NCBI GenBank assembly: GCA_020630395.1
Contig: JAHDBM010000017.1
Location: 1-51,398 of the forward strand
DNA: 51,398 nt
Origin: Flavobacteriales bacterium
GTDB lineage: Bacteria; Bacteroidota; Bacteroidia; Flavobacteriales_D; CAJJDF01
Direction: 5' to 3'
Shown in pieces: positions 2,759 to 35,517 of the stretch (position 1 is the first letter of the stretch; each line of letters begins with the position of its first letter). The position numbers were made by a program, and so were the translations under genes. Below the pieces are notes generated by a model. The model saw nothing but the letters and a program-made list of their open reading frames with translations, was not told where the DNA came from and made no database searches.

Positions 2759-4627
2759 CTACTGATTTATCGTATTTATTGAGTCATCAGTAACCCCAAA
2801 CTGCTCTTTATATGCTCTATATCTTTTTCGAGCTTCTACAACAAACAAACTGCCAGGGTAATCAAATAGAAGCTTTCCATAAGTTTGGAAAGCTTTCTTT
2901 TCATCTTTTAATTGATTTTCATATAACTCTCCCAATTTAAAAAGAGCATTATCGGCTAAAATATCTTCGCTATATGTTTTAACAATTTCATTTAAAAATT
3001 CTTCTGCCTTAATGAATTCTCGTTTCTTAAAGGCAATTTCATATCGTTTATATAAAATCTCATCATTTAATGAATGAGCCGGAGCTTCCATATTAATACT
3101 ATCTAATTTTGTTAACGCTTCCTGATATTTATTTTGTAAAATCAATAAATCCGCTTGTGAGAATCTATTCATGTGAACAACTGTTGTGTCCATATTATAA
3201 TTATCAGTAATTAATAAGGATAAGTCCATTGCATCATTTGAAATTAACTTACTTGTACTTGCTTTTAATGAATTTAACTGATTTTGACTCCATTCATAAT
3301 CACCTGTGAAATAATAAAGCCTTGCATTTTTAAACTTAGCAGTATGGCCTATTACATCTTGCTTAAACATTTTTTCCACTTGCATATATAACAATGATGC
3401 ATCCCAAACCTCATTTTCAATTAATAACAAATCTGCTTTCAAGGTTTTTGCTAAAGCAATGCTTTTTTTATCCAGTCCTGGATAAGCTAATACTTCGTCT
3501 AATAAAATTCTAGCAGTATCTAAATTATGGATATAATAAATTTCAAGTTTTGCTAAATCCATTATTAGCGGAACTTTTTCTCTATAATTTTTAACATTGC
3601 CAAGCGTAGCAACATATCTGCTTTCTAATTTCGAAAGATCATTATCATTATAACTATTATTAGTTGTGATTTTTTCATTTAACACCCCTAAGATCTTTTT
3701 CTCACTCGACTTGTAATAATAATTTTCATTAGAAAAATTTGATAAAATATACTCATATCCATCAATTGCTAAATTATACTCTTTGTTAGAGGTACATAAA
3801 TTAGCAAATCGGTAAACCTCTTCTCCTTTAGCTTTTTTTCGTTTATCTAAAGCTTTAACCTGAATAAAAGCTGACCTAAACTCACCTCTTTGCTGAAAAA
3901 ACCAAATTAACATTCTATTAAACACAATGTTAGATGGCTCTGACTGTATTTTTTTTAAAAGCTTCACCCTCAACAATTCACATTTAGCATTATCCTCTTC
4001 AAAATCTATTGTTCTTGGTAAAACAGATTGAACACGAGATAACTGACCAGGATTTTTACTCAATATAGCTAAATAAGCATCTATCATTTCTTCATGCATA
4101 TTCTTTCTACCATATAAATCGGCTATGTAAATACCAAAATTTAGATTAGTGTTTTTTATATTTTTATCACCTTTTTTATATACTTCAAGCGCATAATTAA
4201 GTTTATTTAATTTGGTAAACTCATTACCTAATAACTTATACTGAACATAAGTTGTATTGTTATCCAGATCATTTATTATTTTTTCGAAATAAGAAGCTGC
4301 TTTATCTTTTCTACCCACTTTTTCATATACCGAACCAACATTTAATTTATAGGTAATACTATTTGGATTTTTCTTAGCTTGTTTTTCAGCTATTTTTACA
4401 GCTTGTTTGTTTTCCCCTACTTCTATTAAACTGTTAACATAATAGGTGTAGTTTTGATTGGAACTATTCTTCTTATATACTTTTTCAAGATAAAGTACCG
4501 CTTTATCAAATTCATTGTTATTGTAATAATAGTATCCTAATTCTTCATCAGTAGTTTGCGAAAAACCACTAAAAGATATACTTAAAATAAGTCCAAAAAG
4601 GATAAGATGTATATTATTTATTACCAT
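2759..4627 (-). CDS. Secreted tetratricopeptide-repeat protein
   Basis: Predicted 622 residues from the ATG at 4627; a GTG two codons upstream (4633) is also possible. The N-terminus (MVINNIHLILFGLILSISFS, then GFSQ) is a signal peptide ending at a typical Bacteroidota SPase I site. The mature protein is helical with many degenerate TPR units (for example YYYNNNEFDKAVLYLEKVY near the start and ALFKLGELYENQLKDEKKAF near the end), consistent with a periplasmic or outer-membrane scaffold. Its start overlaps the end of the upstream lipoprotein gene by 14 nt, so the two are probably translationally coupled and functionally linked. No catalytic motif is visible. T9SS/gliding TPR proteins (SprE/PorW) are lipoproteins of different size, so I do not assign it to them. 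Confidence 0.8.
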   Translation of the reverse strand: MVINNIHLILFGLILSISFSGFSQTTDEELGYYYYNNNEFDKAVLYLEKVYKKNSSNQNYTYYVNSLIEVGENKQAVKIAEKQAKKNPNSITYKLNVGSVYEKVGRKDKAASYFEKIINDLDNNTTYVQYKLLGNEFTKLNKLNYALEVYKKGDKNIKNTNLNFGIYIADLYGRKNMHEEMIDAYLAILSKNPGQLSRVQSVLPRTIDFEEDNAKCELLRVKLLKKIQSEPSNIVFNRMLIWFFQQRGEFRSAFIQVKALDKRKKAKGEEVYRFANLCTSNKEYNLAIDGYEYILSNFSNENYYYKSSEKKILGVLNEKITTNNSYNDNDLSKLESRYVATLGNVKNYREKVPLIMDLAKLEIYYIHNLDTARILLDEVLAYPGLDKKSIALAKTLKADLLLIENEVWDASLLYMQVEKMFKQDVIGHTAKFKNARLYYFTGDYEWSQNQLNSLKASTSKLISNDAMDLSLLITDNYNMDTTVVHMNRFSQADLLILQNKYQEALTKLDSINMEAPAHSLNDEILYKRYEIAFKKREFIKAEEFLNEIVKTYSEDILADNALFKLGELYENQLKDEKKAFQTYGKLLFDYPGSLFVVEARKRYRAYKEQFGVTDDSINTINQ

Positions 4628-5168
4628 AAACACTAACTATTGAATCTAAATACTCTGATACATTATTGTATTCTGTTAACGCATAATTTGCTTTAGAATT
4701 GTACCATTTAATATTCAAAATAAAGTCATTCATTGCATTTAGTTCACTATTTACATATTTAGTAACAGTATCTTGAAAAAAAGTTTCGTTAATCAAATTT
4801 TCTCTAAGTGATTCATATTGACTTTTATTGTATATATATTCTTTTTGTATGTTCTGATTACTAAACTTTATTTTTCCAAGCCCCTTAACAAAGTTACCTT
4901 TCATTATAGCTAATGCATTGTCATATGGTAAAATAACAGTATCAGATATATAACCTTTTCTTGCATTATCATATTTAACTCTAGCACTATCAATTATAGA
5001 AAAAACTGCTTCATGATTAATCTCATTAAATTGCTTCATTAAGCTATCAGATTCAGCTGCTTTTTCATCTAAGGCAAGTATAGAATCTTTATACTTAGAA
5101 TTTTCAGCAGTTTTTTGACAACTAATACAAATAGTTAAAAACAAAATGATTGAAAAAACAATTCTCAT
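4614..5168 (-). CDS. Putative lipoprotein of unknown function
   Basis: 184 residues starting MRIVFSIILFLTICISCQKT. A hydrophobic stretch ends in Ile-Ser-Cys17, a plausible but non-ideal lipobox, followed by a polar mature N-terminus. The remainder is charged and helical with no domain I recognise. It sits 3 nt downstream of serS and overlaps the next gene (TPR protein) by 14 nt, so the three form one transcription unit. Lipoprotein plus TPR protein suggests a small envelope complex, but that is inferred from gene order only. Confidence 0.7.
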   Translation of the reverse strand: MRIVFSIILFLTICISCQKTAENSKYKDSILALDEKAAESDSLMKQFNEINHEAVFSIIDSARVKYDNARKGYISDTVILPYDNALAIMKGNFVKGLGKIKFSNQNIQKEYIYNKSQYESLRENLINETFFQDTVTKYVNSELNAMNDFILNIKWYNSKANYALTEYNNVSEYLDSIVSVYGNK

Positions 5169-6623: not shown

Positions 6624-9600
6624 ATGCGATCAATATTGTTGTTTATTATTGTAATAAGCACTATTTCATACACTTACAGTCAAAACACTTTTTTCGTTAC
6701 GGCTCCTGGCTCTAATACTCCAAGTGGAACTGAACCTTCTATGGAGTTATTTACATGCGAGGCTAGTAAAGAATATGTGGTTTTATTTGATAATTTCTCT
6801 CCACACTCTGCTCAAAACATAACACTTAATTTTACTCTTCCACCTGGATTAGTATATGATTCTTCTTTACCTAATTCAGTGTCAGTGACAAATAATAATT
6901 CCTCTACTGGTACAACAACTTCATTTACCTCATCAGCTGGCTCTAGCAATGTACAGGTTGCAATAGGCAATATGAATACACAAGATAAAGCACAAATCAA
7001 ATTTTATATAAAAGCTACATGTGGATCATACCAGCATGGATCAGGAAATAATGCATTTACACCTTCAATTTCTGTAAATTACACACCTTCAAGTACAGGA
7101 GCACCTACTTCTGAAACATATAATTTACCAGACATAGATGTTAGATATCCTAATTTACAAATGGTTGTTGATAATTATTTATCATCTGCAAGAGTAATTA
7201 GTTATCCTACAACAAATCCTGGAATTGGTGATACTATATTTAGAGAAATTAGAATAAAAAATGGAGGAGCAGCCTCTCTATCTACTTTTATCTACAGAGC
7301 TAAAAATGATGATTGTCTTCAAATAAGAGGCCATAACCTTGGTTCTTTGAATTCACAAACTTCTGGTGGATACACATTTAATTCTGTAGTTTTTAATGGA
7401 ACAGATTTTTCTACTATAGGTAATGGTGACAACTTTTTTGATCCGAATGAAGAAATCATATTACTTGAAGAGGCTATAATATTATGCTGTAATAATCCAG
7501 TAACACAACATCAGCTTATGTGGGGTTGTGGAAGCGATATTTGTCAATTCGAAAAATATAATAATGGAATAACATTTCCTCCGAGTTCTCCAAGAATTAT
7601 TGCTACTCCTTTTTCAATGGTTGGTGCATCTTCTAGTGACACCTTGTGCTATGGTGATTTTAATGCCGTTACTATGCATCTTGACTTAAAAAATGTTGGT
7701 TCTGAATTTCCAGCCCCCTCCCCAACTATTGACTCTGCACAAGATGTTATTGTAGATATATACCAAGGAAGGAATGGTTTTTCTTCAAATATGCTAAGTA
7801 TTATTGATGTAAGTACTATTCAAGTAATTAATAAAAATTCTGGCGCAATTTTACCTTACAGTACAATTAGTTCTTCGCCAAATTCATCAGCTTATTGTAG
7901 TGGTCCTAATCCAGCTAATGCAGTTGGCAGGTTTCAAATTAAAATAGATAAGCTATATGCAAATGAAGAAATAAGAATTAGCTGGGATGTTTTTTCATGT
8001 AATAATAACTCATGCTCTAATATTAAATTAGGAGCATACAGTTGGAGATATAATGTGACTTATTATAATAGATGTGACAAAGCATTTAATGAAATTAGAA
8101 ATAAAGAAGGTTATAAATGGACCGAACTTCAACATTCACTAACCTCATTAGGATCTAACCCAAATAATATTAGTGGATCATCTGCTTTACAATATATTTT
8201 TAAATTTGAAATATCTCAATCAGATTTTAATATACCTCATGATGCAAGTGATTATTTAGAATATAAAATTGTTATTCCTCCATGTATGACTTTCAGTCCT
8301 ACTGGTGCTGATATATTTTTAGATGATTGGTTACCTTCTACTCCGAGAATAACACCTGATAACATATCTATTTCTCCATCTAATGACACAATTTACGCGC
8401 GATTTAATGATGGATTTGAACAATTAGAACAGTGGGTTTTAAATGTAAGGTTTACATCAGAAATTTGCGCTTCGTGTTCAACTACCGGTAGACAATCAGT
8501 TAAAGTTCAATCTTATTACAAGGCTACAAACTCTTGTGGTAACGCTCATGCTCTTGGTTGTGCGGAATCATTTTATCAAAGAATTTGCGGAAACTGTCCT
8601 GGAAACATTTCTCTTAATGTTAATGCAGGTAATAAAAACGGATTTGCAAGGACATCTTTTGGAGATATTGATAGTGATGATGATGGTGTTTCAGATGGTG
8701 CTGGACCAACAAATGCTGCTCAAAGTGGAGTGAGAGTGGATAGAGCTAGTTATGGTGATATAGTAACCATGACTTATGATTTTGAAAATCCAAATGGAAG
8801 ATTTTTAAACGTAGACCCAGCATTTTGTCCCGGCTTTCCTTCTTCTGCAAGGACTCCTGCTCCAAACTTTATATACACTTACATAAAAGTAAGTAATGCT
8901 TCGTTATTCCAACTTCAATCAATTGATTTAAATCTATCGCATAGTTTATGTAATTTTAGTTCAACAACAACAACCTATACCAATGTTGCTCACACGAGTT
9001 CAATAATACCTTTAACGAACGATTCTTCAATTATTAATATTGAACTAGACATTAATCAATTACACGCAGCAGGTGATTGGCCTGAATTTGTTAACACAGG
9101 TCAGATCAAACTAAACTTCGAAGTTATATCGAACCCTAATGTAGCAGTTAAACAATGTCCTTACGAGTTTGGTATGTTTGCTAATAATACAGCAATAACA
9201 TTAAATACAATAACTAATTCTAACGCTAATTTTTGTCGAATTTTAAATGGTAATTTTGATATCATTGGGTACCGATATGCAAGTTATGCTAGGAATTATT
9301 TTAATTTCCATAGCTGTGATAATGTTGAAGTTAGTGAACGTTATAGGTTTAATGTAGGTGTTTGGTTTGAAGGTATGGTAGGTACTAATTATTATCCTAA
9401 TGAATACAGACCATATTCTTATGTTGATACACTAATAGCATCTACTACTAATGAATATAGACTCGTTAGTGCTGAATTGAATTATTATAGAACTAATGGT
9501 GTAAATTCACAAGAGTTGATTCCTTTTACTGATATCATGCCACACCTATCATCACCATTAGTGGGGTCAAATTTTAAATTTAATGTTGGTGATTTATTTA

Positions 9601-12600
9601 GATTAGGCACGTTCCCTCAATCAGATGAAGGATACATGGGAGATGTTAAATTAGTTTTTGAACCTACTTGTGCAACTGAAGAAATTCCAGACACAATTAA
9701 TTATAACTGGGTATTTAATGAAAGTAGTATGCTAGCTGGTTCTAATACTTCTAATACCGAATCTAGTAATGATATTATTACTTATCAAGCACCAGATATT
9801 ATTCCACAAACTACTCAACAAACAGCTCAAGTTATTGGAACAAATTTTTCATGGATTATTCTAATTCCTAATAATTCTAATATATCAACTGCTCAAAATT
9901 CTTGGTTTGCTATTGACAATGCTGGATCGACTATTGTTATTGATAAAGTAGAAAGGATTGACGGATCACAAAACACTACTTTTGGTATGGGTAGTGGTAC
10001 TGCAAGTGATGTTAATGGAATCTATCAAATGAGAAGATTAGATCCAAGTAAATTTAATAGAATTAAAATATCTGCACATTTAACTACATGTAATGCTGAT
10101 AGTGTAAAATTACTATTAGGATATGATTGTGATGGATATCCTAGTAGTATAAATAATATATTATGCCCTGTAGAAGAAATGATGCTATATGCAGAACCTA
10201 AGTTCCCTACAATAAGTAATGTAATAACTGCATCTAACAATCCTGTTGATTTATGTGATGACGTTACCTATACTATTAAAGTTGAAAATTCTGGGTTAGG
10301 TATTGCTTATAATGTTTTAAGTAAAGTATCTCTACCATTACAAATGACTTATGTTGTAGGTTCTGCTGAAATATATGATCCAAATAACAGTAGTGCAGGA
10401 TGGGTAAGCTTTGTCCCAAATCAAGCACCAGGTGCTCTAACATTTGATATTGATAATTTAATCCCTTTGATTGGTTCAAATGGACTTATTGGCATTACTA
10501 ATCCAAGTAAAAATTATGTTAAAATACGTTTTAAGGTTACTACTGACTGTGGATTTGTCTCTGGTACAAAAATTCAATGCGTAAATGAAGCAGTTGCAGC
10601 ATGTAACAGACCTTTTACATCTCAACCATTTACTTCTGAACCATATTTAATCAATGGAGCAATTGCTACACATCAAAATCAAATTATTATTGATGCGGGA
10701 TGGCTTACACCATGTGATACCTCAACCCCTGTTCAAGTTAAAATCATTAATCTTGGACCAATAAATAATTGGGTTGGAGATTCTATAACAGTTGTATTGC
10801 CAAATGGTATTCATTATAAAACTGGTTCTTATGATTCGATCCAAAACGTTTCTTCTGCTCCTCCTGTTATTACTAGTTTTGGTAATAAAGAATATTTAAG
10901 ATGGGAATTAAGCAACTTAGTTGCTAATACTGACACAGCAAAATTTGGTTTTCAAATATTATCACAGCCTGACTCTATTAAAAGTTGTATTAATCAATTT
11001 ATGCAAGTGTATACAACTAATGAAGATAATGCTATCTGTAGTTCTACTGGGTTAGGATGTAAAGTAAATGTATTAACTGGAGATACACTTGAGCCTTTAT
11101 TTGTTGAAAAAGGTTCATTATTATTAGCTAATGCATCAGCCTTTAGTATTCCTAATCCAACAACTGGTGAAAAAGTATATGTAAACTTTGATATAGACAA
11201 TATTGGACCAGCAATAAATGGCAATATTAATGGATTGCCTAATGGTACAGTTGTAAGTTATTTTGATGATATTGATGGAACTAACACCTATACATTAGCT
11301 GACACCTTACTTGTAACTGATACTATATGGGACACCATTCCTAATGGAACTTATTCATATAATGACAGCTTACTATTACCAGCTGGCAAAGCCTGTAAAC
11401 TTCTCGTAGTACTAGATTATTTAAACAATCCTTGTATTTGTTCATCAAGTGAAATTTTAATTCCTAATGTTTCAATGATAACAAATGAAGAAGACGATTC
11501 TGTTTGTGCACTAATTCCTACACCTATAGGTTATGAAGATTCAATTACAAGGTACAATTATTCATGGAGAAGAATTAATTTACCTGGAGCGGGTGGTGGA
11601 ACTTCCTATTTAAATGATGACAGTACACATAACCCAATAATTACAGCTCCAAATCCGATAGGGGGAATAGATACATTAACTTATGAAATAACAATAGATA
11701 GAATTAATTGTACTACATTAGATACAATTAATGTTATCATTACTTCTAGTCCATTAGCTGATGCAGGAGCTGATGATTCTGTATGTTTATCTTCTTATAA
11801 TTTAGATGGGAATATTCCTTTAGTCGTTCCTGGTATTATTAATACAACTGGAGAATGGACAGTAGATAATTCTTATGGAAATGGTGGATCTTCATCAATA
11901 AGATTTATTGATAGTTCAATATACAATACTACAGTTACTGGCTTGGAAGATGGCTTATATAGATTTATATGGACACTCGATAATGGATTTTGTGAAGGTA
12001 CACCTGACACTATGGAATTAACGGTTTTCTTAACCGACTACTTACTTGGTAATGACACCATTTTATGTAACCAAAACAACTTTACAGTAACAGCTCCTTC
12101 TTTATCTACTGGTTACACAGGAAATTGGAGCTTTACAAGCAATAGTGCAACTGGTGCAATAATTAGCTCAACAACAACTAACACGACTACAATTAATGGT
12201 CTATTGGATGGAGAATATGAATTAGAATGGGAGGTTACAGCTCCTAATGGACTTTGCACCTATAAAGACAGTATTAAAATTTATAATTACATACATGATA
12301 CAGCTTATGCAGGAAGTGATTCAGCTATTTGTGGTGTATTTAATTTTAACTTATGGGCTGATAGTTTAATTAATAGCAACATTGGAACATGGAGTATTGA
12401 TTCGTCTCTTGGTAATGCCAATAACATCTCTATAAGTGACATTAACAAGCACAATAGTCTTGTTGCCTTTGCTGATAGTGGGAATTACACATTAGTGTGG
12501 ACCAGTATAAGTGGTCCTTGTGATACAACAACTGACTCTGTTAATATATCAATATCTAATATTCCTGTATCATCTACACCAGATACTCTTATTATATGTA

Positions 12601-14153
12601 ATGAAGACACATTATTACTAACTGCTAATGTTCCTCTACCAAATGAAATTGGAAGATGGAAAGCTTTAGCTACTAATCCTTCTATTATTGCATTTGATGA
12701 TGATTCTAGTCCTAATACGATTGCACGTAACTTCATTAATGGTACTTATAAGTTAGTTTGGATAGTTGATAATGCAGTGTGCGATTCTGTTACAGATACT
12801 TTAACCGTGATTTCTAGCGCTAAACCAATAATCAGTGCTGGAGCTGACAGTAACAGTTGTGAAACTACTTCAATACAATTATCAGCTACTCCTATTGGAT
12901 TAATTGAAAAAGGAAAATGGAGACAATTAGATGGTAATGCCCCTGTTAATTTTGTTTCTATAAATAGCCCAACCTCATTAGTTACTGGTTTATCTGTAAA
13001 CAACTATGAGTTTGAATGGTCAGTAACTAATGGCATATGTGACACTGCCTATGACACAGTTAATATTAACATATTTGAAGCGCCAATTGCTGATGGCGGA
13101 ACAAACATTAGTTATTGTGACACTAATGAAGCTACATTAAGAGGCAATATATTAACTACAATGAATTATCATACGTATGAGTGGAGCTTTAATTCTTCTT
13201 TATCTCAAGCTAGTAATTCTCCAATAATAGTTAATCCTGATTCTATTGTTAGTGAAATAAGAAACTTAGAAGTTGGTATTTATGCTTTTGTTCTTGAAGC
13301 AACTAATGGTTATTGTGACTCAGTAACTGATACAGTATATGTTACTATACATGCAAATCCTGTAGTAAACTATACTGCCACTCCTAATACAATTTGTGAA
13401 GGAGACTGTATTGAATTTAATGATGCATCATCAGTAACAGATTCATCTGGATCAGTTATTTTAACGTATAGTTGGACTTTTGGAAACGGAAACAGTAGTG
13501 ACAATAAAGATGTTCAAGAATGTTACACAACTCAAGGAGAATACGACATATCTCTTGAAGTAACTACTGATAAAGGTTGTAGAACATCTATTATTGTTCC
13601 AAATGATATAACGGTCAATCCTAATCCTGTAGCTGATTTTAATTATATTCCTAATGTTAATATTACACCTGAACTAGACATTACCATAGAAGACTTAAGT
13701 TCTGGAGCTGTTGGTTACAAATACAGTTTTGGGGATGGTAATACTGATGAAGGAAATGCAAATACTTCTCATGCATATGCTGATACAGGAATATATGAAT
13801 TAAAACAACTTGTTACTAATGAATTTGGTTGTACTGATTCAATTATTAAATTAATTGAAGTTAAAAACCAAGTGTTTATTGTAATACCAAATTCGTTTAC
13901 TCCAAATAATGATAATGTTAATGATGTTCTTTCACCTGTAGCTCTTGGTATTGAACAAGATAGTTACACCTTCTCTGTTTTTAATAGATGGGGACAGTTA
14001 GTATTTTCTTCTAAAAGTATAGAGGAAGGATGGGATGGTAAGCATAAAGGACGTGTTGTACCAGATGGAAATTATGTTTGGAAAATAAGCTTTAAAGAAA
14101 AAGATGGCGTTAGAATATTTGAAAGAACTGGCCATGTAACTGTTTTCAAATAA
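6624..14153 (+). CDS. Giant T9SS type B cargo protein, adhesin-like
   Basis: 2,509 residues. A signal peptide (MRSILLFIIVISTISYTYSQ) starts it; the ATG at 6624 is the only sensible start. The N-terminal ~1,700 residues are beta-rich, Cys-containing and DUF11-like (for example DVTYTIKVENSGLGIAYNV at about residue 1210), with an Asp-rich calcium-binding-like segment (DIDSDDDGVSDG, about residue 685). Residues ~1711-2242 hold six modules of about 85-95 residues with W and paired Cys. Two PKD domains follow (about 2243 and 2332; YSWTFGNGNS, YKYSFGDGNT). The last ~90 residues (IPNSFTPNNDNVNDVLSP ... VFNRWGQLVF ... GHVTVFK) are a T9SS type B (CHU_C) sorting domain. Expected path: Sec export, then T9SS secretion to the surface or medium. 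A SprB-like adhesin role is plausible but not shown. It is monocistronic. Confidence 0.93.
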   Translation: MRSILLFIIVISTISYTYSQNTFFVTAPGSNTPSGTEPSMELFTCEASKEYVVLFDNFSPHSAQNITLNFTLPPGLVYDSSLPNSVSVTNNNSSTGTTTSFTSSAGSSNVQVAIGNMNTQDKAQIKFYIKATCGSYQHGSGNNAFTPSISVNYTPSSTGAPTSETYNLPDIDVRYPNLQMVVDNYLSSARVISYPTTNPGIGDTIFREIRIKNGGAASLSTFIYRAKNDDCLQIRGHNLGSLNSQTSGGYTFNSVVFNGTDFSTIGNGDNFFDPNEEIILLEEAIILCCNNPVTQHQLMWGCGSDICQFEKYNNGITFPPSSPRIIATPFSMVGASSSDTLCYGDFNAVTMHLDLKNVGSEFPAPSPTIDSAQDVIVDIYQGRNGFSSNMLSIIDVSTIQVINKNSGAILPYSTISSSPNSSAYCSGPNPANAVGRFQIKIDKLYANEEIRISWDVFSCNNNSCSNIKLGAYSWRYNVTYYNRCDKAFNEIRNKEGYKWTELQHSLTSLGSNPNNISGSSALQYIFKFEISQSDFNIPHDASDYLEYKIVIPPCMTFSPTGADIFLDDWLPSTPRITPDNISISPSNDTIYARFNDGFEQLEQWVLNVRFTSEICASCSTTGRQSVKVQSYYKATNSCGNAHALGCAESFYQRICGNCPGNISLNVNAGNKNGFARTSFGDIDSDDDGVSDGAGPTNAAQSGVRVDRASYGDIVTMTYDFENPNGRFLNVDPAFCPGFPSSARTPAPNFIYTYIKVSNASLFQLQSIDLNLSHSLCNFSSTTTTYTNVAHTSSIIPLTNDSSIINIELDINQLHAAGDWPEFVNTGQIKLNFEVISNPNVAVKQCPYEFGMFANNTAITLNTITNSNANFCRILNGNFDIIGYRYASYARNYFNFHSCDNVEVSERYRFNVGVWFEGMVGTNYYPNEYRPYSYVDTLIASTTNEYRLVSAELNYYRTNGVNSQELIPFTDIMPHLSSPLVGSNFKFNVGDLFRLGTFPQSDEGYMGDVKLVFEPTCATEEIPDTINYNWVFNESSMLAGSNTSNTESSNDIITYQAPDIIPQTTQQTAQVIGTNFSWIILIPNNSNISTAQNSWFAIDNAGSTIVIDKVERIDGSQNTTFGMGSGTASDVNGIYQMRRLDPSKFNRIKISAHLTTCNADSVKLLLGYDCDGYPSSINNILCPVEEMMLYAEPKFPTISNVITASNNPVDLCDDVTYTIKVENSGLGIAYNVLSKVSLPLQMTYVVGSAEIYDPNNSSAGWVSFVPNQAPGALTFDIDNLIPLIGSNGLIGITNPSKNYVKIRFKVTTDCGFVSGTKIQCVNEAVAACNRPFTSQPFTSEPYLINGAIATHQNQIIIDAGWLTPCDTSTPVQVKIINLGPINNWVGDSITVVLPNGIHYKTGSYDSIQNVSSAPPVITSFGNKEYLRWELSNLVANTDTAKFGFQILSQPDSIKSCINQFMQVYTTNEDNAICSSTGLGCKVNVLTGDTLEPLFVEKGSLLLANASAFSIPNPTTGEKVYVNFDIDNIGPAINGNINGLPNGTVVSYFDDIDGTNTYTLADTLLVTDTIWDTIPNGTYSYNDSLLLPAGKACKLLVVLDYLNNPCICSSSEILIPNVSMITNEEDDSVCALIPTPIGYEDSITRYNYSWRRINLPGAGGGTSYLNDDSTHNPIITAPNPIGGIDTLTYEITIDRINCTTLDTINVIITSSPLADAGADDSVCLSSYNLDGNIPLVVPGIINTTGEWTVDNSYGNGGSSSIRFIDSSIYNTTVTGLEDGLYRFIWTLDNGFCEGTPDTMELTVFLTDYLLGNDTILCNQNNFTVTAPSLSTGYTGNWSFTSNSATGAIISSTTTNTTTINGLLDGEYELEWEVTAPNGLCTYKDSIKIYNYIHDTAYAGSDSAICGVFNFNLWADSLINSNIGTWSIDSSLGNANNISISDINKHNSLVAFADSGNYTLVWTSISGPCDTTTDSVNISISNIPVSSTPDTLIICNEDTLLLTANVPLPNEIGRWKALATNPSIIAFDDDSSPNTIARNFINGTYKLVWIVDNAVCDSVTDTLTVISSAKPIISAGADSNSCETTSIQLSATPIGLIEKGKWRQLDGNAPVNFVSINSPTSLVTGLSVNNYEFEWSVTNGICDTAYDTVNINIFEAPIADGGTNISYCDTNEATLRGNILTTMNYHTYEWSFNSSLSQASNSPIIVNPDSIVSEIRNLEVGIYAFVLEATNGYCDSVTDTVYVTIHANPVVNYTATPNTICEGDCIEFNDASSVTDSSGSVILTYSWTFGNGNSSDNKDVQECYTTQGEYDISLEVTTDKGCRTSIIVPNDITVNPNPVADFNYIPNVNITPELDITIEDLSSGAVGYKYSFGDGNTDEGNANTSHAYADTGIYELKQLVTNEFGCTDSIIKLIEVKNQVFIVIPNSFTPNNDNVNDVLSPVALGIEQDSYTFSVFNRWGQLVFSSKSIEEGWDGKHKGRVVPDGNYVWKISFKEKDGVRIFERTGHVTVFK
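11755..13350 (+). repeat. Six-fold module array in the giant T9SS protein
   Basis: Six diverged in-frame modules start near 11755, 12046, 12298, 12570, 12826 and 13084. Each opens with a segment such as ADAGADDSVC or PIISAGADSNSC, has a central W (GEWTVDN, GKWRQLD) and closes with a segment such as FIWTLDNGFC or FEWSVTNGICDTAYDTVNI. The pattern is of the SprB/PKD-like repeats of Bacteroidota adhesins. The repeats are protein-level; DNA identity looks low, so they are old. Confidence 0.75.
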
Positions 14154-26947: not shown

Positions 26948-27727
26948 ATGCGTTTACTAATATTTATACTAGCTATAATACCAGCTCTATCTTTTTCTCA
27001 AAAAAAAGAAGAATATTACTTAGCTGAAAACAACAAAGGAAGAGTTGCGTTATCTTTTGGAGTAAACAGAAGCTCATTCGACTTAGGTAACTTTAGTGTA
27101 CTTGGAGATAATAAAAACTTTACACTTCATGATTATGAAGGCAATGACGGCTTCAAAGGAATTAATTTCTCTGCAAACAATATAAAACTAGAATACTTTT
27201 TTCATAATCGTTTATCAGCAGCTATTAGCTATAGCAACATGAATTATGTTGGATTTAATAATCGTCTTATTCAAATCTCTGGGCAAATAGATACTGGAAA
27301 TTACAAAGGACAATACCTTGAAAGAGAAGATGTAATTAGAACAACACCTGATTTAATTACAAACAACACTCAAATATCTACAATATCATTAAGTGTTTTT
27401 GCTCATGATGACTTTATGGTATTTGCTGATGAATTGATCGTATGGAGTTATTATTTTGGTGTTGGTGGAGGCATAGTAACTTCTAAAAGCGACATCAGTA
27501 TTCTTAACCAAGAATCTTATTCTTCATCAAATGGAATGAATGGATTTAATTTTCAATCTAATTTTGGAACTCGACTAAATATTGGTCCAGCTTTTATTGA
27601 TTTTGGAGGTAAAGTTGGAACCGTAAGAATGAATAATATTGCATTAGATGAAAATGGGACTATTGCCAAACAAAGTTTTATTTTTGCCTCTGGAATTGCT
27701 AGTATTGGTGTTAGCTATAATTTTTAA
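26948..27727 (+). CDS. Outer-membrane beta-barrel-like protein, paralogue 2
   Basis: 259 residues. Signal peptide MRLLIFILAIIPALSFSQ; the motif VALSFGVNRSSFDLGNFSVL lines up with SWGYNRSHFALSNIHLT of the preceding gene, and HNRLSAAISYSNMNYVGF lines up with NENWAISLGYDHMKYV. The C-terminal strand ends IGVSYNF, with a terminal Phe as in many barrel proteins. It lies 38 nt downstream of paralogue 1. Its stop shares bases 27724-27727 with the stop of the convergent ABC exporter gene. The function is unknown. Confidence 0.72.
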   Translation: MRLLIFILAIIPALSFSQKKEEYYLAENNKGRVALSFGVNRSSFDLGNFSVLGDNKNFTLHDYEGNDGFKGINFSANNIKLEYFFHNRLSAAISYSNMNYVGFNNRLIQISGQIDTGNYKGQYLEREDVIRTTPDLITNNTQISTISLSVFAHDDFMVFADELIVWSYYFGVGGGIVTSKSDISILNQESYSSSNGMNGFNFQSNFGTRLNIGPAFIDFGGKVGTVRMNNIALDENGTIAKQSFIFASGIASIGVSYNF

Positions 27728-29523
27728 GCAAATTGTATACTTGCTAAATGCTTGTAAATACCATTCTCAATTAAAATAAGCTCATCATGAGTACCTTGCT
27801 CTACAATTCTTCCCTTATCAAACACTAAAATTTTATCACAATTTTTAATAGTAGATAGCCTATGCGCTATAATAATTGATGTTCGGTTTATCATTAGTTT
27901 ATCTAACGCTTCTTGTACTACCTTTTCTGATTCTGAATCTAATGAACTTGTTGCTTCATCTAATATAAGTATAGAAGGATCTTTTAATATTGCTCTGGCA
28001 ATTGCAACTCTTTGTCTTTGTCCACCTGATAATTGAACACCTCTCTCGCCAACTATAGTTTCGTAACCTTGCGGAAATGACATAATAAATTCATGTGCAT
28101 TTGCATGCTTGGCTGCTTCAATTAAAGTATCATAATCCACTTCTGTATCACCATATAAAATATTTTCTTTGATACTTCCATTAAATAAAAACACATCTTG
28201 AGGAACAACTGTCATCTCATTTCTTAACCTGCTTAAATCGTATTCTTCAGCTTCAACATCATCAAAAAAGATTTTACCTCCGGTTGGTTTATAAAACTGA
28301 AGTAACAATGATGCCACTGTCGACTTACCTGCTCCAGAACTACCAACTAGAGCAACCTTACTTCCCGATTCAATTGATAAATTTAAATCTTTAAGAACTT
28401 GTAAATCTGGTCGAGTTGGATAATAAAATCCAATATCTTTAAACACTACCTTTCCTGATAAATTAAGAGGAACAATTTTACTACCTAATTGAACTGGTTC
28501 AATTTCTTGCTTCATGATTTTCATTAAACTATCGGTTGCTCCAATTGCTTTCTGAATACTTGCATAAGAATTAGGGATACTTCCAATAGAAGACCCAATA
28601 AAAATCGTAAAAAATATAAACTGATAAAATTCCTCTTGAGTAATATCCTTATTATCTACCGACTCCATTCCTTGCCAAATGATAAATACAATAACACTAA
28701 ACATAGACACTACAATAAAACTTATAAATGCAGCTCTCCATCTCACACTTTTAAGTGCATATTTTTTTATATCCTCAGCTGATTTTTTAAATTTCATCAA
28801 CTCAAAAAATTCATTTGAAAATGACTTAACGGTTGCAATACCTGATAATGCTTCATTTAAAACATTAGTAGAATCAGCAGAGCTATTTTGCGCCTTTTTA
28901 GAAATTTTTTTGATATAAGATCCAAAAACAATTGCTACTACAATCACTACTGGCAAAGTAGCTAACATAATTAAACTTAGTTTTGGAGCAAAAATAAGCA
29001 ACCCAACCACACTAAATAATACAATTATAATTTGTCTTATAAATTCTGCAATTGTAACATTAAGTGTTTCTTGTAGTAAATTAATATCTGTTGCAATTCT
29101 ACTGGTTAACTCTCCTACTTTATTACTATTAAAGAAAGACATTGGAGATTTAATCATATGCTTAAAAGCATCTTGTCTTAAGTCATTCAAAGAATTTTCA
29201 GTCATATAACCAGTCAACAAAATTCTTAAATAAGAAAAAATTGCTTGACAAACAAACACAAGTATTAATCCAATTACAACTGATAATCTTGTATCAAAAA
29301 ATTCATCTCCAAAATTTGACTGAACAGAAGTAGTTACTTCATCACTGCTAAGCAGTTTTCCCATTAAATAAGGAAATAATAATGCAATTAGACTTCCTAA
29401 AACAAGAAAAATAAATCCTCCAATAAAATACCCTCTATAAGGCTTAATGTATTTAAAAAAGGAGGATGCCCCTTTAACAACTCCTTTTTCTAACTTAACT
29501 CGCTCTCCTCTTTTTCTTGCCAT
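27724..29523 (-). CDS. ABC-type exporter, fused membrane and ATPase domains (MsbA-like)
   Basis: 599 residues from the ATG at 29523 (MARKRGERVKLEKG); a TTG three codons upstream is less likely. An N-terminal six-helix ABC exporter domain (~30-320) is followed by an ATPase domain with Walker A at ~389-397 (GSSGAGKST), signature LSGGQRQRVAIARA, Walker B ILILDEATSSLD and the H-loop (IIAHRLSTI). It works as a homodimer in the inner membrane. The substrate is not given by the sequence; lipid, lipid-linked glycan or drug are all possible. It follows the glycan cluster by 63 nt on the same strand, which fits export of a glycan-related product but may be chance. Confidence 0.92.
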   Translation of the reverse strand: MARKRGERVKLEKGVVKGASSFFKYIKPYRGYFIGGFIFLVLGSLIALLFPYLMGKLLSSDEVTTSVQSNFGDEFFDTRLSVVIGLILVFVCQAIFSYLRILLTGYMTENSLNDLRQDAFKHMIKSPMSFFNSNKVGELTSRIATDINLLQETLNVTIAEFIRQIIIVLFSVVGLLIFAPKLSLIMLATLPVVIVVAIVFGSYIKKISKKAQNSSADSTNVLNEALSGIATVKSFSNEFFELMKFKKSAEDIKKYALKSVRWRAAFISFIVVSMFSVIVFIIWQGMESVDNKDITQEEFYQFIFFTIFIGSSIGSIPNSYASIQKAIGATDSLMKIMKQEIEPVQLGSKIVPLNLSGKVVFKDIGFYYPTRPDLQVLKDLNLSIESGSKVALVGSSGAGKSTVASLLLQFYKPTGGKIFFDDVEAEEYDLSRLRNEMTVVPQDVFLFNGSIKENILYGDTEVDYDTLIEAAKHANAHEFIMSFPQGYETIVGERGVQLSGGQRQRVAIARAILKDPSILILDEATSSLDSESEKVVQEALDKLMINRTSIIIAHRLSTIKNCDKILVFDKGRIVEQGTHDELILIENGIYKHLASIQFA

Positions 29524-29586
29524 TATATACAATTAAAAAACATTAAATACACCTAGATAATACTAAAACGAATTTAATAAAGGGAA

Positions 29587-31269
29587 TTAATACACAATCT
29601 CTAAAACATAAGCTTCTTCAGTAACTCCAAATTTTTTGAGGATTTTAATTTTGTTTGGATACTGCAATTGTATAGCCCTTACATATGTATGAATAGTTCC
29701 AATAAATTTATTAGGAATCATTTTAGTAGGATCCATCCTAATTTTACCTAATAAAACATGAGTAATCCCTTGGTCTTTAAACTCTTTTAGAACTTCATCT
29801 GCTTTAGACTTAGTGCTCCTATGTCTTCCTACAAATGTTACATTACCATTCATACTATATGCTTTAGATGAATTTGGTTTTCTACAAACTACCATACTCC
29901 CTTCAGGTAAATTTTCTGAAGCCCAAGTAGTTGCTGCTAAATAATTTTGCCAATCTTGTGTATATCCAGCAAAATCATTACCCGCAAAGTAATCTCTTCT
30001 CTCTTCACTATTTTCTTCTACTTTACTTGGTAAGTGCCTTAAATTCACTAAGCACAAAATAAAAATAAAGAAAAGTAACATTTTTTGATGTATTATATTT
30101 TTTTTGGATAACCAATGTCTTAACGATTCAAAAATAAAAACAATGATTAGCGGAATAAAAACAATGATCATTCTATCTTGTTTCCATTGTGCTTGCAATG
30201 CCAAAAATGTACCACCAAGCATCATACTAACATAAAGACCTATAAAGAAAATCTTTTTTCTATTTTTAAATACTAGAATCAAACAGAATAAAAATAGAAG
30301 GATGAATATAATTGTTATAACTGGTTGTGGAGTTAATTTTATATTATCTCTAAAACCAAGTATTCTCATTAAATCACATGATATATGGTAATTTAAGTTT
30401 TCCCACACTCTAGTTAATAAGCCTAAAAAATCCTCATTTCCAAGTTCTGGCTTATAATAATCTTTTAACCATAAAGTAGACGATCTATTAGATAAACTCT
30501 CAATATTAAAAATGCTTTTAATGACTAAATCAAAACTAAGCTTGAATATTCCAAATAACCCACCTACTATTAATATATTTTTCCACTTTCCGTTTAATAG
30601 CAAATAAAATAAAACTGACATAATTGCAATCAGTCCAATACCTTTGGATATGCTTACCAAAAAAGATAATAACACTATAACTATTACCCCCTTAACATAA
30701 CTAATTAATTGTTTCCCGGTAAACTGAAAATTAGTCATTAATTTTTCATGATTCCTGTATACGAAATAAATGAAAAGCATTTGAATAAACATAAAAAATG
30801 CCTCTGACATAACTGAGCTGGAATAAAATAATATAGCAAAGCTAGTAGCATACATAAATAATACACTGAACAAAACAAATCGAGTTGTTTCTTTCTTAAA
30901 TGTATAATAGGTTAAGGTAAAAGCTCCAAGAGCAAAAACAAACGATAATATTTTAATAAAGAATATACTTGTACCAGATATCAATATTGGTATTGAAAGG
31001 ATAAAATGATACAAATAAGTTTCATGAACTGAAGGGAATTCTCCGTTAAAAATAAAATTATGAGGCGCTATAATATAATCAGCATCATCTTGCATTAAAA
31101 CAATCGATCCTTTAAATAATAAAAAAGAAACAACACCCATTAAAGTCAATAGTAAAATGAAAATTTTGGGTTTTAATTCCTTTTTATCTTGAGCTACATC
31201 AGCTTTAACATCATTGCTTTGAGCTGGAATATCTTCTTTTAGTTTCGATTGCTTTTTTAGCTTGCTCAT
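29587..31269 (-). CDS. Polytopic GT-C-type glycosyltransferase-like membrane protein
   Basis: 560 residues. A Lys/Gln-rich cytosolic N-terminus (~1-33) precedes about 11 predicted membrane helices and a soluble C-terminal domain (~440-560). After the first helix comes a loop with acidic residues (GSIVLMQDDADYIIAPHNF), the place where GT-C enzymes of the ArnT/PMT type (GT39-like) keep their catalytic Asp/Glu. Such enzymes take a sugar from a polyprenyl phosphate donor on the periplasmic side. The neighbouring gene encodes a DPM1-like GT2 domain that could make that donor. The exact substrate is unknown and GT-C membership is an inference from topology and loop motif. Confidence 0.65.
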   Translation of the reverse strand: MSKLKKQSKLKEDIPAQSNDVKADVAQDKKELKPKIFILLLTLMGVVSFLLFKGSIVLMQDDADYIIAPHNFIFNGEFPSVHETYLYHFILSIPILISGTSIFFIKILSFVFALGAFTLTYYTFKKETTRFVLFSVLFMYATSFAILFYSSSVMSEAFFMFIQMLFIYFVYRNHEKLMTNFQFTGKQLISYVKGVIVIVLLSFLVSISKGIGLIAIMSVLFYLLLNGKWKNILIVGGLFGIFKLSFDLVIKSIFNIESLSNRSSTLWLKDYYKPELGNEDFLGLLTRVWENLNYHISCDLMRILGFRDNIKLTPQPVITIIFILLFLFCLILVFKNRKKIFFIGLYVSMMLGGTFLALQAQWKQDRMIIVFIPLIIVFIFESLRHWLSKKNIIHQKMLLFFIFILCLVNLRHLPSKVEENSEERRDYFAGNDFAGYTQDWQNYLAATTWASENLPEGSMVVCRKPNSSKAYSMNGNVTFVGRHRSTKSKADEVLKEFKDQGITHVLLGKIRMDPTKMIPNKFIGTIHTYVRAIQLQYPNKIKILKKFGVTEEAYVLEIVY

Positions 31270-31301
31270 TATAAAATATATTTAGTGCTTTCTTTAAGCT
31301 T

Positions 31302-32723
31302 TTAATAAAATTTAATCTTATTCATTGCAAACATGACCATACGCAATAAAATTAATCCGTGCTTGAATCTAGATATATTAGTTTCACCATAAACCCTTTC
31401 TTTATATCTAACTGGAAGATCAATGATTTTTAAATTTAATTTATATGCACCAAATAATAAATCGAAATCTCCAAAAGGATCAAAATCTCCAAAATACTTT
31501 CTATTCTCTGCTAATTTTATGTAATCCTTTCTAAACATAACTTTAGTTCCACACAATGTATCTTTTATTGGCTGTTCCAATAACCATGAAAATGCATACG
31601 AAAAAAACTTATTACCAATAATATTTAAAAAACGCATTGCCTCTTTTTCCATTGGATATACTAATCGACTACCATTTATAAACTCTCCTTTAGAGGTAGC
31701 TAATGCATCATAAAATTTAGTTAAATCTTTAGGAGGAACAGTTAAATCCCCATCTAATATCATTAAGATATCACCAGTTGCAATATCATATCCTTTTTTC
31801 ACAGCATCATATTTACCTTTTCCTGGTTGTCTATCAATAATAATTTTTCTTGTATCCTTGTACTTTTCTGCCATTTGTTGGATTACCTCCCAAGTATCGT
31901 CTGTAGAATTACCTTCAATAAAGATCAATTCGGTTCCTAAACCTAATTCAGGAGTTTCTAATATTGCTCGCTCTATGTTTCCACTTTCATTTCGAGCAGG
32001 AACAACAACTGTTACAGTATAATCTTTATGTTCTTTTCCTGGAAATGGTTTTGCAAATACATATTGTGATAAGCACATATGATGCAACAAAGGTAATTTC
32101 GCAAAAAACTTATTAAAAATAAATGATATTAATGGTATGTTGAAGGGAATAAGTAACCTTGTGTTATCTCTAAAGCTATCAAAACCTGATAAAAACAATA
32201 GGTTTTTAATATCATGTTGAGATAACCAATTTTGTTCAGGAGATTTTTTCTTAATTCTAATAAATTCAGCAAAATTGATTAAGGGCTGCCAAAGACGATT
32301 ATAATGATTAATAAAAACCTTTGTGTTTTGATGACAACAATTTGAAATATTATTCAAAACATCAGAAACGTTTTCAAAACATCCAATAACATTTGACAAA
32401 ATAATAACATCATATTTCTCTTCCTCTTTAAAATTTGATGCATCAGCAAGCTCAAATTCTATATCGGGATAATTGCTTTTAGCCTGCTTTATCATATTTG
32501 GACTAAAATCTATTCCCTTTTTTCTATCTCCTTTTAGTTCATTTAAAGTATCACCTATACCACAACCTACTTCGAGAATACTATTGGTATCCAATAAAAA
32601 GTAATTGAAGTATTTAATATTATCTTTTCTGTAATATTTAAACCTATTTTTATATTTAGAATATGTAGATGCTAGAGCATCAAAATGTTCTATCCATCTA
32701 TTTTTAAATGACTTATTCTCCAT
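31302..32723 (-). CDS. Bifunctional SAM methyltransferase / GT2 glycosyltransferase
   Basis: 473 residues. Residues ~20-220 are a class I SAM methyltransferase (ILEVGCGIGDTLNELKG for SAM binding, then DVIILSNVIGC). Residues ~235-473 are a GT2 domain of the dolichol/polyprenyl-phosphate mannose synthase type: VTVVVPARNESGNIERAI, ELIFIEGNSTDDTWEV, DILMILDGDLTVPP (DxD), and DFDPFGDFDLLFGAYKL. No membrane helices follow, as in soluble DPM1. The GT2 domain probably loads a sugar on polyprenyl phosphate; the methyltransferase target is unknown. It overlaps the upstream methyltransferase gene by 11 nt and lies 32 nt before the GT-C gene. Confidence 0.85.
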   Translation of the reverse strand: MENKSFKNRWIEHFDALASTYSKYKNRFKYYRKDNIKYFNYFLLDTNSILEVGCGIGDTLNELKGDRKKGIDFSPNMIKQAKSNYPDIEFELADASNFKEEEKYDVIILSNVIGCFENVSDVLNNISNCCHQNTKVFINHYNRLWQPLINFAEFIRIKKKSPEQNWLSQHDIKNLLFLSGFDSFRDNTRLLIPFNIPLISFIFNKFFAKLPLLHHMCLSQYVFAKPFPGKEHKDYTVTVVVPARNESGNIERAILETPELGLGTELIFIEGNSTDDTWEVIQQMAEKYKDTRKIIIDRQPGKGKYDAVKKGYDIATGDILMILDGDLTVPPKDLTKFYDALATSKGEFINGSRLVYPMEKEAMRFLNIIGNKFFSYAFSWLLEQPIKDTLCGTKVMFRKDYIKLAENRKYFGDFDPFGDFDLLFGAYKLNLKIIDLPVRYKERVYGETNISRFKHGLILLRMVMFAMNKIKFY

Positions 32724-33477
32724 TTTCTTTCTTTTTTACCTCTATTAATTGAAACATCCCATTTAAAAAATAAAAAGGTGTAAACAAAAGTTCTATAAAT
32801 TTAGCGAATCCAAATCCCCATGCTGGGAATAATGCTCTATGTGAAAACCCTCCACTTAAAAAATATAAAAAAGGTGTATGTAATTTTCTTTTGGTTATAC
32901 TAAATTTTGGATATTTTTTTAAAAAAATTTCTTTATCTCTTTTAAAAACTATCCAAGGTATTGCTCCATTAGCGTTACTTAACGGACCTCCTTTAGTTGT
33001 TATTTTCCACCCTGCTTTTGGATCAAATGGTTCGTGGTGAAATTTTTTGTAAAAAAATCGACTAAAAGGGGTGTTAGCCGGTTCAGACATTAAGATTATT
33101 CCTCCATCTACTAAACATCTTTGAGCTTCTTCGAAAAATAACTCACAATTAGGTATATGATGAAGTACATCAATCATAAAGATACATTTCAATGAATTAT
33201 CTTCAAAAGGCATTGATTCTGCTGAGAAAACCATATCTACATTAGATAATTCCATTACATCAGATGTAATAACTTCTGGAAGTAATTCTTTTAAAAAACC
33301 TCCTCCGGATCCTATTTCTAAGATTTTACCTTCTTTTGGTAAAGTATCAAGACGATTTAATAAAAAACCATACCAACTTTTATATAATTTATATAAAAAT
33401 TTCTTATTCTTTAACTCATCTTTTCTTTCAAGAGTTAATGATGGGTCATCCAGTTCTTCAAGTAATTCTTTAGCCAT
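32713..33477 (-). CDS. Class I SAM-dependent methyltransferase
   Basis: 254 residues. A Methyltransf_11-type domain: EGKILEIGSGGGFLKELLP (motif I), SAESMPFEDNSLKCIFMIDVLHHIP, and CLVDGGIILMSEP. The C-terminal part (FLSGGFSHRALFPAWGFGFA) is hydrophobic and may be membrane-associated. Together with the fused methyltransferase downstream this gives two in one glycan cluster, pointing to a methylated sugar or lipid carrier product. It starts 2 nt after the fcl stop. Confidence 0.85.
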   Translation of the reverse strand: MAKELLEELDDPSLTLERKDELKNKKFLYKLYKSWYGFLLNRLDTLPKEGKILEIGSGGGFLKELLPEVITSDVMELSNVDMVFSAESMPFEDNSLKCIFMIDVLHHIPNCELFFEEAQRCLVDGGIILMSEPANTPFSRFFYKKFHHEPFDPKAGWKITTKGGPLSNANGAIPWIVFKRDKEIFLKKYPKFSITKRKLHTPFLYFLSGGFSHRALFPAWGFGFAKFIELLFTPFYFLNGMFQLIEVKKKENGE

Positions 33478-33479
33478 AA

Positions 33480-34409
33480 TTACTTAAGGGTATTTAGATA
33501 TAACTGATACGTTTTTGCTAAACCATCTTCTATCTCTGTTTTGTATGACCACCCTAATTGATTAATGTTAGTTACGTCCATCAATTTTCTTGGTGTACCA
33601 TCAGGTTTTGAAGTGTCACAAACAATTTCACCAGTATATTGAGTAACTTCTTTGATTATCTCAGATAATTCCTTTATAGAAATATCTTTTCCAACACCTA
33701 TATTCAAATGCTCTCTTCCATTATAATTTTTCATTAAAAACAAACACGCCTCTGCTAAATCATCAACAAATAAGAATTCTCTTTTTGGAGTTCCAGTACC
33801 CCAAATAACAACCTCTTTTTTACTATTTATTTTTGCTTCATGAAATTTTCTAATCAAAGCAGGAATAACATGAGAATTATTTAAATCATAATTATCATTT
33901 TCTCCGTAAAGATTAGTTGGCATTGCTGAAATAAAATTACAGCCATATTGTTCTCTATAAAATTCGCATAATTTTATACCTGCTATTTTAGCAATGGCAT
34001 ACGCATCATTAGTAGGTTCTAAAGATCCTGTTAACAGATATTCTTCTTTAATAGGCTGCTCACTAAATTTTGGATAAATACATGAAGAACCTAGAAACAA
34101 TAGTTTTTTTACTCCAAATTCATATGAACTATGAATAACATTGTTTTGAATACTTAAATTATCAAATAAAAAATCTGCTTTGTATTTACTGTTAGCTAGA
34201 ATTCCTCCAACTTTTGCAGCTGCTAAAAAGACGTAACTAATATTTTCCTCTTTAAAAAAATGTTTTACATCTTCTTGCTTACGTAAATCTAGCTCTTTGG
34301 ATGATCTAGTTACAATATTATTAAACCCTTCTTTTTTTAACGCCCTTAATATTGATGAGCCAACCATTCCATTATGCCCAGCTACAAATATTTTTTCTTC
34401 CTTATTCAT
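33480..34409 (-). CDS. fcl: GDP-L-fucose synthase
   Basis: 309 residues, the normal length. It converts GDP-4-keto-6-deoxy-D-mannose into GDP-L-fucose (epimerase and NADPH reductase). The Rossmann motif is [17 protein letters not shown]; the catalytic Ser and Tyr/Lys are in [10 protein letters not shown] and [11 protein letters not shown]; and [19 protein letters not shown] is family-typical. It overlaps gmd by 8 nt, so both steps of GDP-fucose synthesis are coupled. Confidence 0.96.
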
Positions 34410-35517
34410 ACTCTTTGGCTAATAAATATCCTCCTTTTCTAAGATATTCATCTTTTTTAAACAATTTAATATCACTATCAACCATATCTTTAATCAATTG
34501 ATCAAGGCTGTATTTTGGCTCCCATCCTAATTTTTCTTTGGCTTTAGTAGCATCTCCAATTAGTAAATCCACCTCAGTAGGTCTAAAATATCTAGGATCT
34601 ATCTCTACTACAACATCATCAACATTTAAAAAGTCTAATTCACTATTGTTTATCTCAGAAATTATCCCTTTCTCATCTATTCCATTCCCTTCAAATCTAA
34701 TCTTAACCCCTATATGATTAAATGCCTTTTCTACAAAATCTCTAACCTTAGTGGTTTTTCCTGTAGAAATTACAAAATCCTCTGGAGTTTCTTGTTGCAA
34801 CATTAACCACATTGCCTCTACATAATCTTTAGCATGTCCCCAATCTCTTCTTGCATCTAAATTACCCAAGAAAAATTTTGATTGCAAGCCAAGTGATATC
34901 TTGGAAACGGCTCTAGTAATCTTTCTACTCACAAATGTTTCACCTCTTAATGGAGATTCATGATTGAACAATATTCCATTACAAGCATATATATTATATG
35001 CTTCTCTATAATTCACTGTTATCCAATAAGAATACAGCTTAGCAACTGCATATGGTGATCTAGGATAAAAAGGTGTTGTTTCTTTTTGCGGAGTCTCTTG
35101 AACAAGACCATACAACTCAGATGTAGACGCTTGATAAAATTTAATATGTTTCGTTAAATTTAGTAATCTAATTGCCTCCAAAATTCTTAGTGGACCTAAT
35201 GCATCTGTATTAGCGGTAAACTCTGGTGTGTCAAAACTAACTTTAACATGAGACATTGCTCCTAAATTGTAAATTTCATCTGGTCTTACTTCTTGAATTA
35301 TTCTAATAAGATTAGTCGCATCTGTTAAGTCGCCATAATGTAAAATAAAATTTCTTTTACCATCATGGGCATCTTGGAACAAATGATCTATTCTTGATGT
35401 ATTAAAAAGAGAACTTCTTCTTTTTACACCATGAACCTCATAGCCTTTACTCAATAAAAGCTCTGCTAGATATGCCCCATCTTGACCTGTAATTCCTGTT
35501 ATTAAAGCTTTTTTCAT
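34402..35517 (-). CDS. gmd: GDP-mannose 4,6-dehydratase
   Basis: 371 residues. It makes GDP-4-keto-6-deoxy-D-mannose from GDP-D-mannose. The NADP-binding motif is [19 protein letters not shown]; family signatures include [36 protein letters not shown] (catalytic Thr/Ser-Glu), [12 protein letters not shown] (Tyr/Lys) and [18 protein letters not shown]. It is the first gene of the glycan cluster (gmd-fcl-MT-MT/GT2-GT-C, then perhaps the ABC exporter), reading left from a promoter candidate at 35633-35664. Confidence 0.97.

Follow-up and report, generated by a model that had tools for sequence, protein, structure and literature searches.

Repeat-independent sequon enrichment in a giant T9SS cargo protein suggests a glycosylated surface fibre in an uncultured Bacteroidota lineage

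Introduction

Whether a high density of O-glycosylation sequons in a giant secreted protein reflects selection for glycan attachment, or follows from the protein's repeats and composition, is the question raised by P0001, a T9SS cargo protein of 2,509 aa. The protein is encoded by an open ORF on the + strand (6624..14153) of a 51,398-nucleotide stretch of DNA, hereafter the window. The sequon, D-[ST]-[AILVMT], is the common three-residue motif of the general O-glycosylation of Bacteroidota, known from B. fragilis, T. forsythia, P. gingivalis, P. intermedia and F. johnsoniae. The oligosaccharyltransferase of this system is called undiscovered in the available text of a 2025 review (PMC12871550).

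Results

Architecture of P0001

P0001 begins with a signal peptide (residues ~1-20; 6624..6683, + strand), recognised by eye and with a simple hydrophobicity rule, and ends with a CHU_C / Bac_Flav_CTERM type B T9SS sorting domain (residues 2420-2507; 13881..14144, +) that scores above both cut-offs (CHU_C, 57.9 vs 27 bits; TIGR04131, 54.4 vs 35 bits). On the strength of this leader and sorting domain, the protein is predicted to be exported to the periplasm or beyond. Between them lie an N-terminal and middle region (residues 21-1616; 6684..11471, +) with 16 sequons vs 5.9 expected and seven Ig/PKD-like modules of 86-94 aa each (residues 1617-2245; 11472..13358, +), in which two Cys and one Trp are invariant. 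Two PKD_4 stretches were matched, the better of which spans residues 2244-2322 (13353..13589, +), together with three K319L-like PKD stretches and a weak DUF11 match at residues 1201-1260 that fell below the DUF11 cut-off.

In an AlphaFold2 model covering modules 5-7 (264 aa, mean pLDDT 94.6), the three closing sites fall within the final strand of their modules, and the C-D-[ST] sites lie at the first residues of that strand or immediately ahead of them. Residues 1040-1640 were also predicted to be mostly beta (mean pLDDT 82.1); their loose fold neighbours were Ig-domain proteins, with a query-normalised TM of at most 0.26 among the 50 matches listed. A search for relatives with residues 1-2225 returned four stretches, none of them a relative.

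Sequon count and composition

The initial annotation had counted about 40 sequons by hand, at roughly three times a composition estimate and concentrated after residue 1400, and each of these statements was borne out. The exact count is 40 (18 with S and 22 with T), a 3.6-fold excess over the composition expectation of 11.2, and none of 5,000 shuffles (11.2 +/- 3.2) reached it. Thirty-two of the sequons lie in residues 1401-2509 (6.6 expected; 0/3,000 shuffles), and the eight in residues 1-1400 (4.9 expected) were matched by 353 of 3,000 shuffles and are not a significant enrichment. Within the dense part, eight sequons vs 1.1 expected occur in the stretch preceding the modules (residues 1401-1616; 10824..11471, +), 23 vs 4.3 in the modules and one vs 1.2 in residues 2246-2509.

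S, N, T and D are abundant in P0001, which could favour an origin of the sequons in chance or amino-acid composition. The shuffles rule out chance as their source, and the control motifs for E (E[ST]hyd, 1 vs 6.9) and N (N[ST]hyd, 12 vs 18.0) and the reversed motif hyd[ST]D (12, with the same expectation as the sequon, 11.2) were not raised, so that we give composition virtually no credence as an explanation. One other motif, S[ST]hyd, was raised (34 vs 19.1).

The closing strand of the modules

All seven modules of P0001 close with a sequon, starting with D1700-T-I in module 1 (11721..11729, +) and continuing in modules 2-7 (starts 12006, 12267, 12534, 12795, 13053 and 13329, +). The earlier observation that many sequons close the repeat modules therefore applies to every one of them, and the string quoted for it, CDSVTDTV, occurs exactly once (module 7), with CDTTTDSV in module 4, CDSVTDTL in module 5 and CDTAYDTV in module 6.

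The module was followed beyond P0001 in 1,594 ORFs, and 135 matches yielded 133 distinct alignment rows, from 20 proteins. Loci L001-L008 and L118-L128 were dropped from the set as duplicates. No ORF of the named contigs L018-L097 yielded a module row. Modules sought in phages were not found, and in plasmids they were found in two records, from Flammeovirgaceae and Hymenobacter, both of which we take to be Bacteroidota.

In the closing column of this alignment, D is present in 95% of 127 rows and the following S/T in 92% of 128. The two residues can be lost separately: among the 127 rows, D is retained in 8 of 10 modules lacking S/T, and S/T in 4 of 6 lacking D. Their coupling is weak (Fisher p 0.03 in the 124 rows with all three letters; 0.07 in 127 rows). 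The seven closing-strand sites of P0001 thus look fold-bound, and because their Asp is read as tied to the fold, these 7 of the 40 sites are poor evidence of selection for glycosylation. They are valid sequons all the same, and may also be used for glycans.

Such conservation is what would be expected if fold were the only cause, that is, if beta-sandwich modules required D-T-hydrophobic at strand starts and the sequons were a by-product of the repeats. Against this explanation, D and S/T show a coupling, if a weak one, even at the closing strand.

Sequons beyond the repeats

To keep the repeats intact, residues were permuted inside each alignment column. Under this shuffle the modules of P0001 held 21 sequons (the 23 sites less two outside match columns) vs 9.1 +/- 1.8, and with the closing strand removed 14 vs 3.0 +/- 1.6, a count that none of 1,000 column shuffles reached. 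Across all module rows, again minus the closing strand, 117 were observed vs 56.7. None of the control motifs (200 shuffles each) was clearly raised: E[ST]hyd, 5 vs 8.5; N[ST]hyd, 52 vs 71.9; [QSG][ST]hyd, 158 vs 151.7; hyd[ST]D, 27 vs 30.4; D[AGNVLI]hyd, 72 vs 63.6 +/- 6.4; and D[ST]polar, 20 vs 41.5. The repeat-preserving shuffles proposed with the initial annotation thus left the excess standing, and its suggestion that part of the excess is structural, the modules themselves ending in DTV/DSV, can be kept for the seven closing-strand sites and not for the remainder.

The dependence between the residues was measured with a Mantel-Haenszel test stratified by column, with the closing strand excluded. 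In the 133 modules, D was coupled to a following S/T with an odds ratio of 3.95 (z 8.9) before A/I/L/V/M/T, and of 0.86 before other residues. Columns 9 and 76 had first been chosen from sequon counts, and the pooled test, which takes all columns except 80, is free of that selection. The module rows are related by duplication, and the effect was kept in 65 representatives from 50% clustering (4.80, z 7.5, before A/I/L/V/M/T; 1.18 otherwise), in draws of one module per protein (3.29) and when each of the 20 proteins was left out in turn (3.59-4.22). By genome group, the odds were 5.04 in this genome, 4.20 in the same family and 2.37 in other families (27 rows).

With N, E, Q, G, K, S, T, A or P in place of D, the odds in the hydrophobic-third class were 0.28-1.20, and the one clearly raised control, A with other third residues (1.95, z 4.7), fell to 1.12 at the 65 representatives. 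Taken by third residue over all rows, the odds for D were highest for L (11.4), followed by A (5.7), V (4.6), I (4.0) and T (2.2); N (2.2, z 1.1) and S (1.6, z 1.2) followed, G and F were near 1, C had 0 observed of 2.5, and M had no data in the module rows. This preference is similar to the order of third residues at occupied O-glycosylation sites, L, I, V, T, A, S, M, as it appears in the excerpted review (PMC12871550).

Conservation outside the modules and in homologues

A coupling of the same kind was found outside the seven modules. For residues 1-1616 of P0001, aligned with nine homologues, the odds of S/T after D were 3.09 (z 5.3) with a sequon third residue and 0.73 otherwise; the highest control was Q with another third residue (1.71, z 1.9). 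Two sites, D1159-S-V (10098..10106, +) and D1386-S-I (10779..10787, +), are sequons in all ten aligned sequences, with I, V or L in the third place of the former and I or V in that of the latter.

The homologue L009 is 36% identical to P0001 and likewise adjoins serS. Of the 80 named loci retained for comparison, a Flavobacteriales metagenome bin has the serS nearest to that of this genome (68%). Of the 40 sequons of P0001, 21 are still sequons in L009, including S/T and third-residue swaps, and 6 of the 8 in the first 1400 residues are kept; over the whole alignment, 70 of 149 D and 224 of 478 S/T are kept. The comparison with homologues that had been proposed as a check therefore found sequons conserved as three-residue units. 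P0001 also lacks a sequon at several positions where most relatives have one (e.g., 712, 824 and 1206), which indicates that sites also turn over.

These results bear directly on the fold-only explanation. It draws on the closing-strand Asp, with 7 of the 40 sites of this type, and it has no place for the 14 vs 3.0 sequons left over after column-preserving shuffles, for a coupling that hinges on the third residue and does not extend to N, E, Q, G, S or T, or for the coupling in residues 1-1616. Fold alone was rejected on these three grounds, and we consider it an improbable account of the sequons as a whole.

Sequon bias across the genome

The genome was sampled as the window plus 20 stretches of 20 kb, with ORFs taken as mechanical longest-first picks and export classes assigned with a hydrophobicity rule rather than SignalP. 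In this sample the observed/expected ratio of D[ST]hyd was 1.91 for exported proteins (109 proteins; interval 1.47-2.25) and 1.14 for cytosolic proteins (151), and since some high-scoring "cytosolic" proteins clearly bear leaders, the cytosolic ratios tend to be too high. Among proteins of at most 450 aa, the sequon was enriched in exported proteins (2.18; 98 vs 45.0, n=66) and not in cytosolic ones (0.97; 78 vs 80.1, n=125), and this enrichment of small exported proteins is a further point against a fold-only origin.

Named Bacteroidota contigs gave a comparable picture (exported 2.02, 188 proteins; cytosolic 0.98, 470), and E. coli K-12 showed no excess in either class (exported 0.89, 16 vs 17.9, n=25; cytosolic 1.02, 65 proteins). 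The proteome count was made in three versions. The first gave 233 vs 122.2 for Sec-SP proteins and 163 vs 132.8 for cytosolic ones; the second and third shared an exported count of 327 vs 171, with cytosolic counts of 152 vs 129 in the second and 141 vs 123 in the third, from which incomplete sequences were dropped (6 in this genome, 13 in the named contigs). The reversed control was also raised in exported proteins of the named contigs (1.17; 1.05-1.28). In this genome, D[ST]-polar was depleted among cytosolic proteins as well (0.63), so that part of the third-residue effect may be general.

The bias is not uniform among exported proteins. The intervals for sampled lipoproteins (1.60-fold; 0.93-2.32, 18 proteins) and polytopic membrane proteins (1.26-fold; 0.76-1.69) both hold 1. 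Several long proteins are depleted of the sequon, among them a TonB receptor (1 vs 3.9) and an OmpA protein (2 vs 2.7), which argues against a uniform rule. In the window, an OmpA protein has 0 vs 1.4 and a DUF748 protein 2 vs 3.5. A subtilase with a type A tail and five PKD_4 domains has just 4 sequons vs 5.4 expected, although a fold-only origin would lead one to expect more in such a cargo. A neighbour of P0001 in the window, an exported protein of 184 aa (4614..5168, - strand) that is lipoprotein-like by eye and matches no Pfam family, has 6 sequons vs 0.5 expected (0/20,000 shuffles reach 6), and is thus enriched without a recognised Ig domain.

By ratio, P0001 stands 12th of 46 long proteins (at least 800 aa, complete sequences only). 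Each of the 12 sampled long proteins that carry a type B tail, a group to which P0001 belongs, was enriched (1.8- to 4.7-fold, median 3.4). The set is biased, since 10 of the 12 are on stretches gathered by likeness to P0001; among the 29 long proteins of the window and the 20 other stretches, two are type-B proteins. Within this set P0001 is an ordinary member of the long type-B cargo class, and the comparison did not support the view that its sequon richness is unusual.

The depleted long proteins of this genome, on L100, L098, L106, L116 and L117, have 0.2-0.8 of the expected sequons and include an ankyrin-repeat protein beside the TonB receptor and the subtilase. The incomplete giant ORF at L109:8454-20000 has 90 vs 20.7 expected, the most in the sample.

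Glycosylation genes

In the excerpted review (PMC12871550), the metG-wzx-glycosyltransferase locus is described as not conserved phylum-wide, and it therefore does not define the general O-glycosylation system. The Bacteroides-type layout was not found beside metG in this genome, on a contig that ends 4.2 kb past metG. Two Polysacc_synt flippase matches were inspected by eye over the first 50 residues of the neighbouring proteins, and no glycosyltransferase cluster was recognised there. One of them, L130:8460-10348, is a Polysacc_synt-type flippase followed by what appears by eye to be a dUTPase-like gene, and offers a possible lead to a candidate core-glycan flippase.

The window also contains a sugar cluster (27724-35517, - strand) with a GDP-mannose 4,6-dehydratase and an adjoining epimerase, a pair that is presumably of the GDP-fucose type, a methyltransferase fused to a family 2 glycosyltransferase, a second methyltransferase and an ABC exporter. 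These are possible candidate glycan genes.

Discussion

Sequence comparison establishes that P0001 has an excess of sequons, that part of this excess is independent of the repeats, that it is conserved and specific to the three residues, and that the genome favours the motif in exported proteins. Most probably, therefore, the sequons are genuine sites for the general O-glycosylation system known in Bacteroidota. The reading of the initial annotation, that they are glycosylation sites, is thus favoured by the excess beyond the repeats, the three-residue rule and the conservation, and loses the seven closing-strand sites as evidence. As in the described systems, the motif is enriched in exported proteins and a hydrophobic third residue is preferred; the Bacteroides metG-wzx layout was not found, and the system is indicated here by its sequons.

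Enrichment is in itself no proof of modification, and Asp and Thr at strand starts could serve local structure, so that selection of the motif for another use, for instance to bind metal, to cap a turn or to mark a processing site, has to be weighed. The hydrophobic third residue, the interchange of S and T and the bias towards exported proteins agree with the known sequon instead, and we regard such a use as very unlikely.

We consider it quite probable that P0001 represents a giant, largely tandem Ig-like type-B T9SS cargo that receives periplasmic O-glycans at D-[ST]-[AILVMT] and is displayed or released as a glycosylated stalk or fibre. The protein would cross the inner membrane by Sec, acquire its glycans in the periplasm, and only then pass the outer membrane by T9SS, either to stay on the surface or to leave the cell as a stalk or fibre. 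The glycans might confer protease resistance, stiffness or a particular surface chemistry.

The fibre part of this reading fits the tandem Ig-like domains and the relation of the modules to the base of GhpA, described in excerpts of two reports as a heptameric T9SS-secreted hook (PMC13319060, PMC11205867). The modules of P0001 are homologous to the Ig/PKD-like modules in the C-terminal and base part of GhpA of Aureispira sp. CCB-QB1 (9flp, 9fly; profile E 7e-62), and in Foldseek the GhpA base (9fly) was the top match (E 1.4e-16, TM 0.60), with other Ig proteins at ~1e-11. The Ig fold is common: 693 PDB chains matched at E up to 0.001, and a TM of 0.60 was reached by Robo1 as well. GhpA has 5,898 aa, whereas P0001 has 2,509 and is known here from its sequence and from models; residues 23-1599 had no match among PDB sequences at E up to 1, so that homology to GhpA was not found in the N-terminal part. 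P0001 is therefore likely to be a tandem Ig-like stalk or fibre bearing a different head, and the results suggest a surface fibre coated with sugars, of a type whose outline is already known.

For the glycosylation of T9SS cargo, T. forsythia is a precedent and P. gingivalis a counter-example. In the excerpted sources, 19 of 20 predicted sites of T. forsythia TfsB were detected as glycosylated (PMC8550257), and 120 sites in 18 T9SS cargo proteins are quoted for this species (PMC10897501). TfsA and TfsB likewise are T9SS cargo with many sequons; they are S-layer proteins, whereas the 40 predicted sites of P0001 lie on Ig-like domains. According to the text available from PMC8729774, P. gingivalis has 7 sites in 5 cargo proteins, and the motif is missing from its most abundant T9SS cargo, which indicates that cargo glycosylation is species-dependent. 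In F. johnsoniae, SprE is glycosylated and O-glycosylation is reported as important for stability in the excerpt of PMC10994853. Among the papers listed on general O-glycosylation and T9SS, no title or abstract opening mentioned sequon placement in Ig-like modules of giant T9SS cargo, though such work may exist.

A bolder and rather doubtful possibility is that giant type-B T9SS Ig-fibres are the main scaffold on which this lineage displays its general O-glycans, giving cells or hook-like fibres a protein-bound glycan coat. The idea follows from the placement of sequons on facultative strand-start positions while several other long exported proteins are depleted, and it would be the opposite of the abundant-cargo pattern of P. 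gingivalis.

Sequence alone is thus enough to show that, in an uncultured Bacteroidota lineage, a family of giant cargo proteins retains sequons as three-residue units. The column-stratified test, which is cheap, separates likely true sites from repeat by-products, and it yields a third-residue preference resembling that of an enzyme still called undiscovered in the available part of the review (PMC12871550). The results also add a lineage with sequon-rich T9SS cargo, as opposed to the avoidance reported in P. gingivalis.
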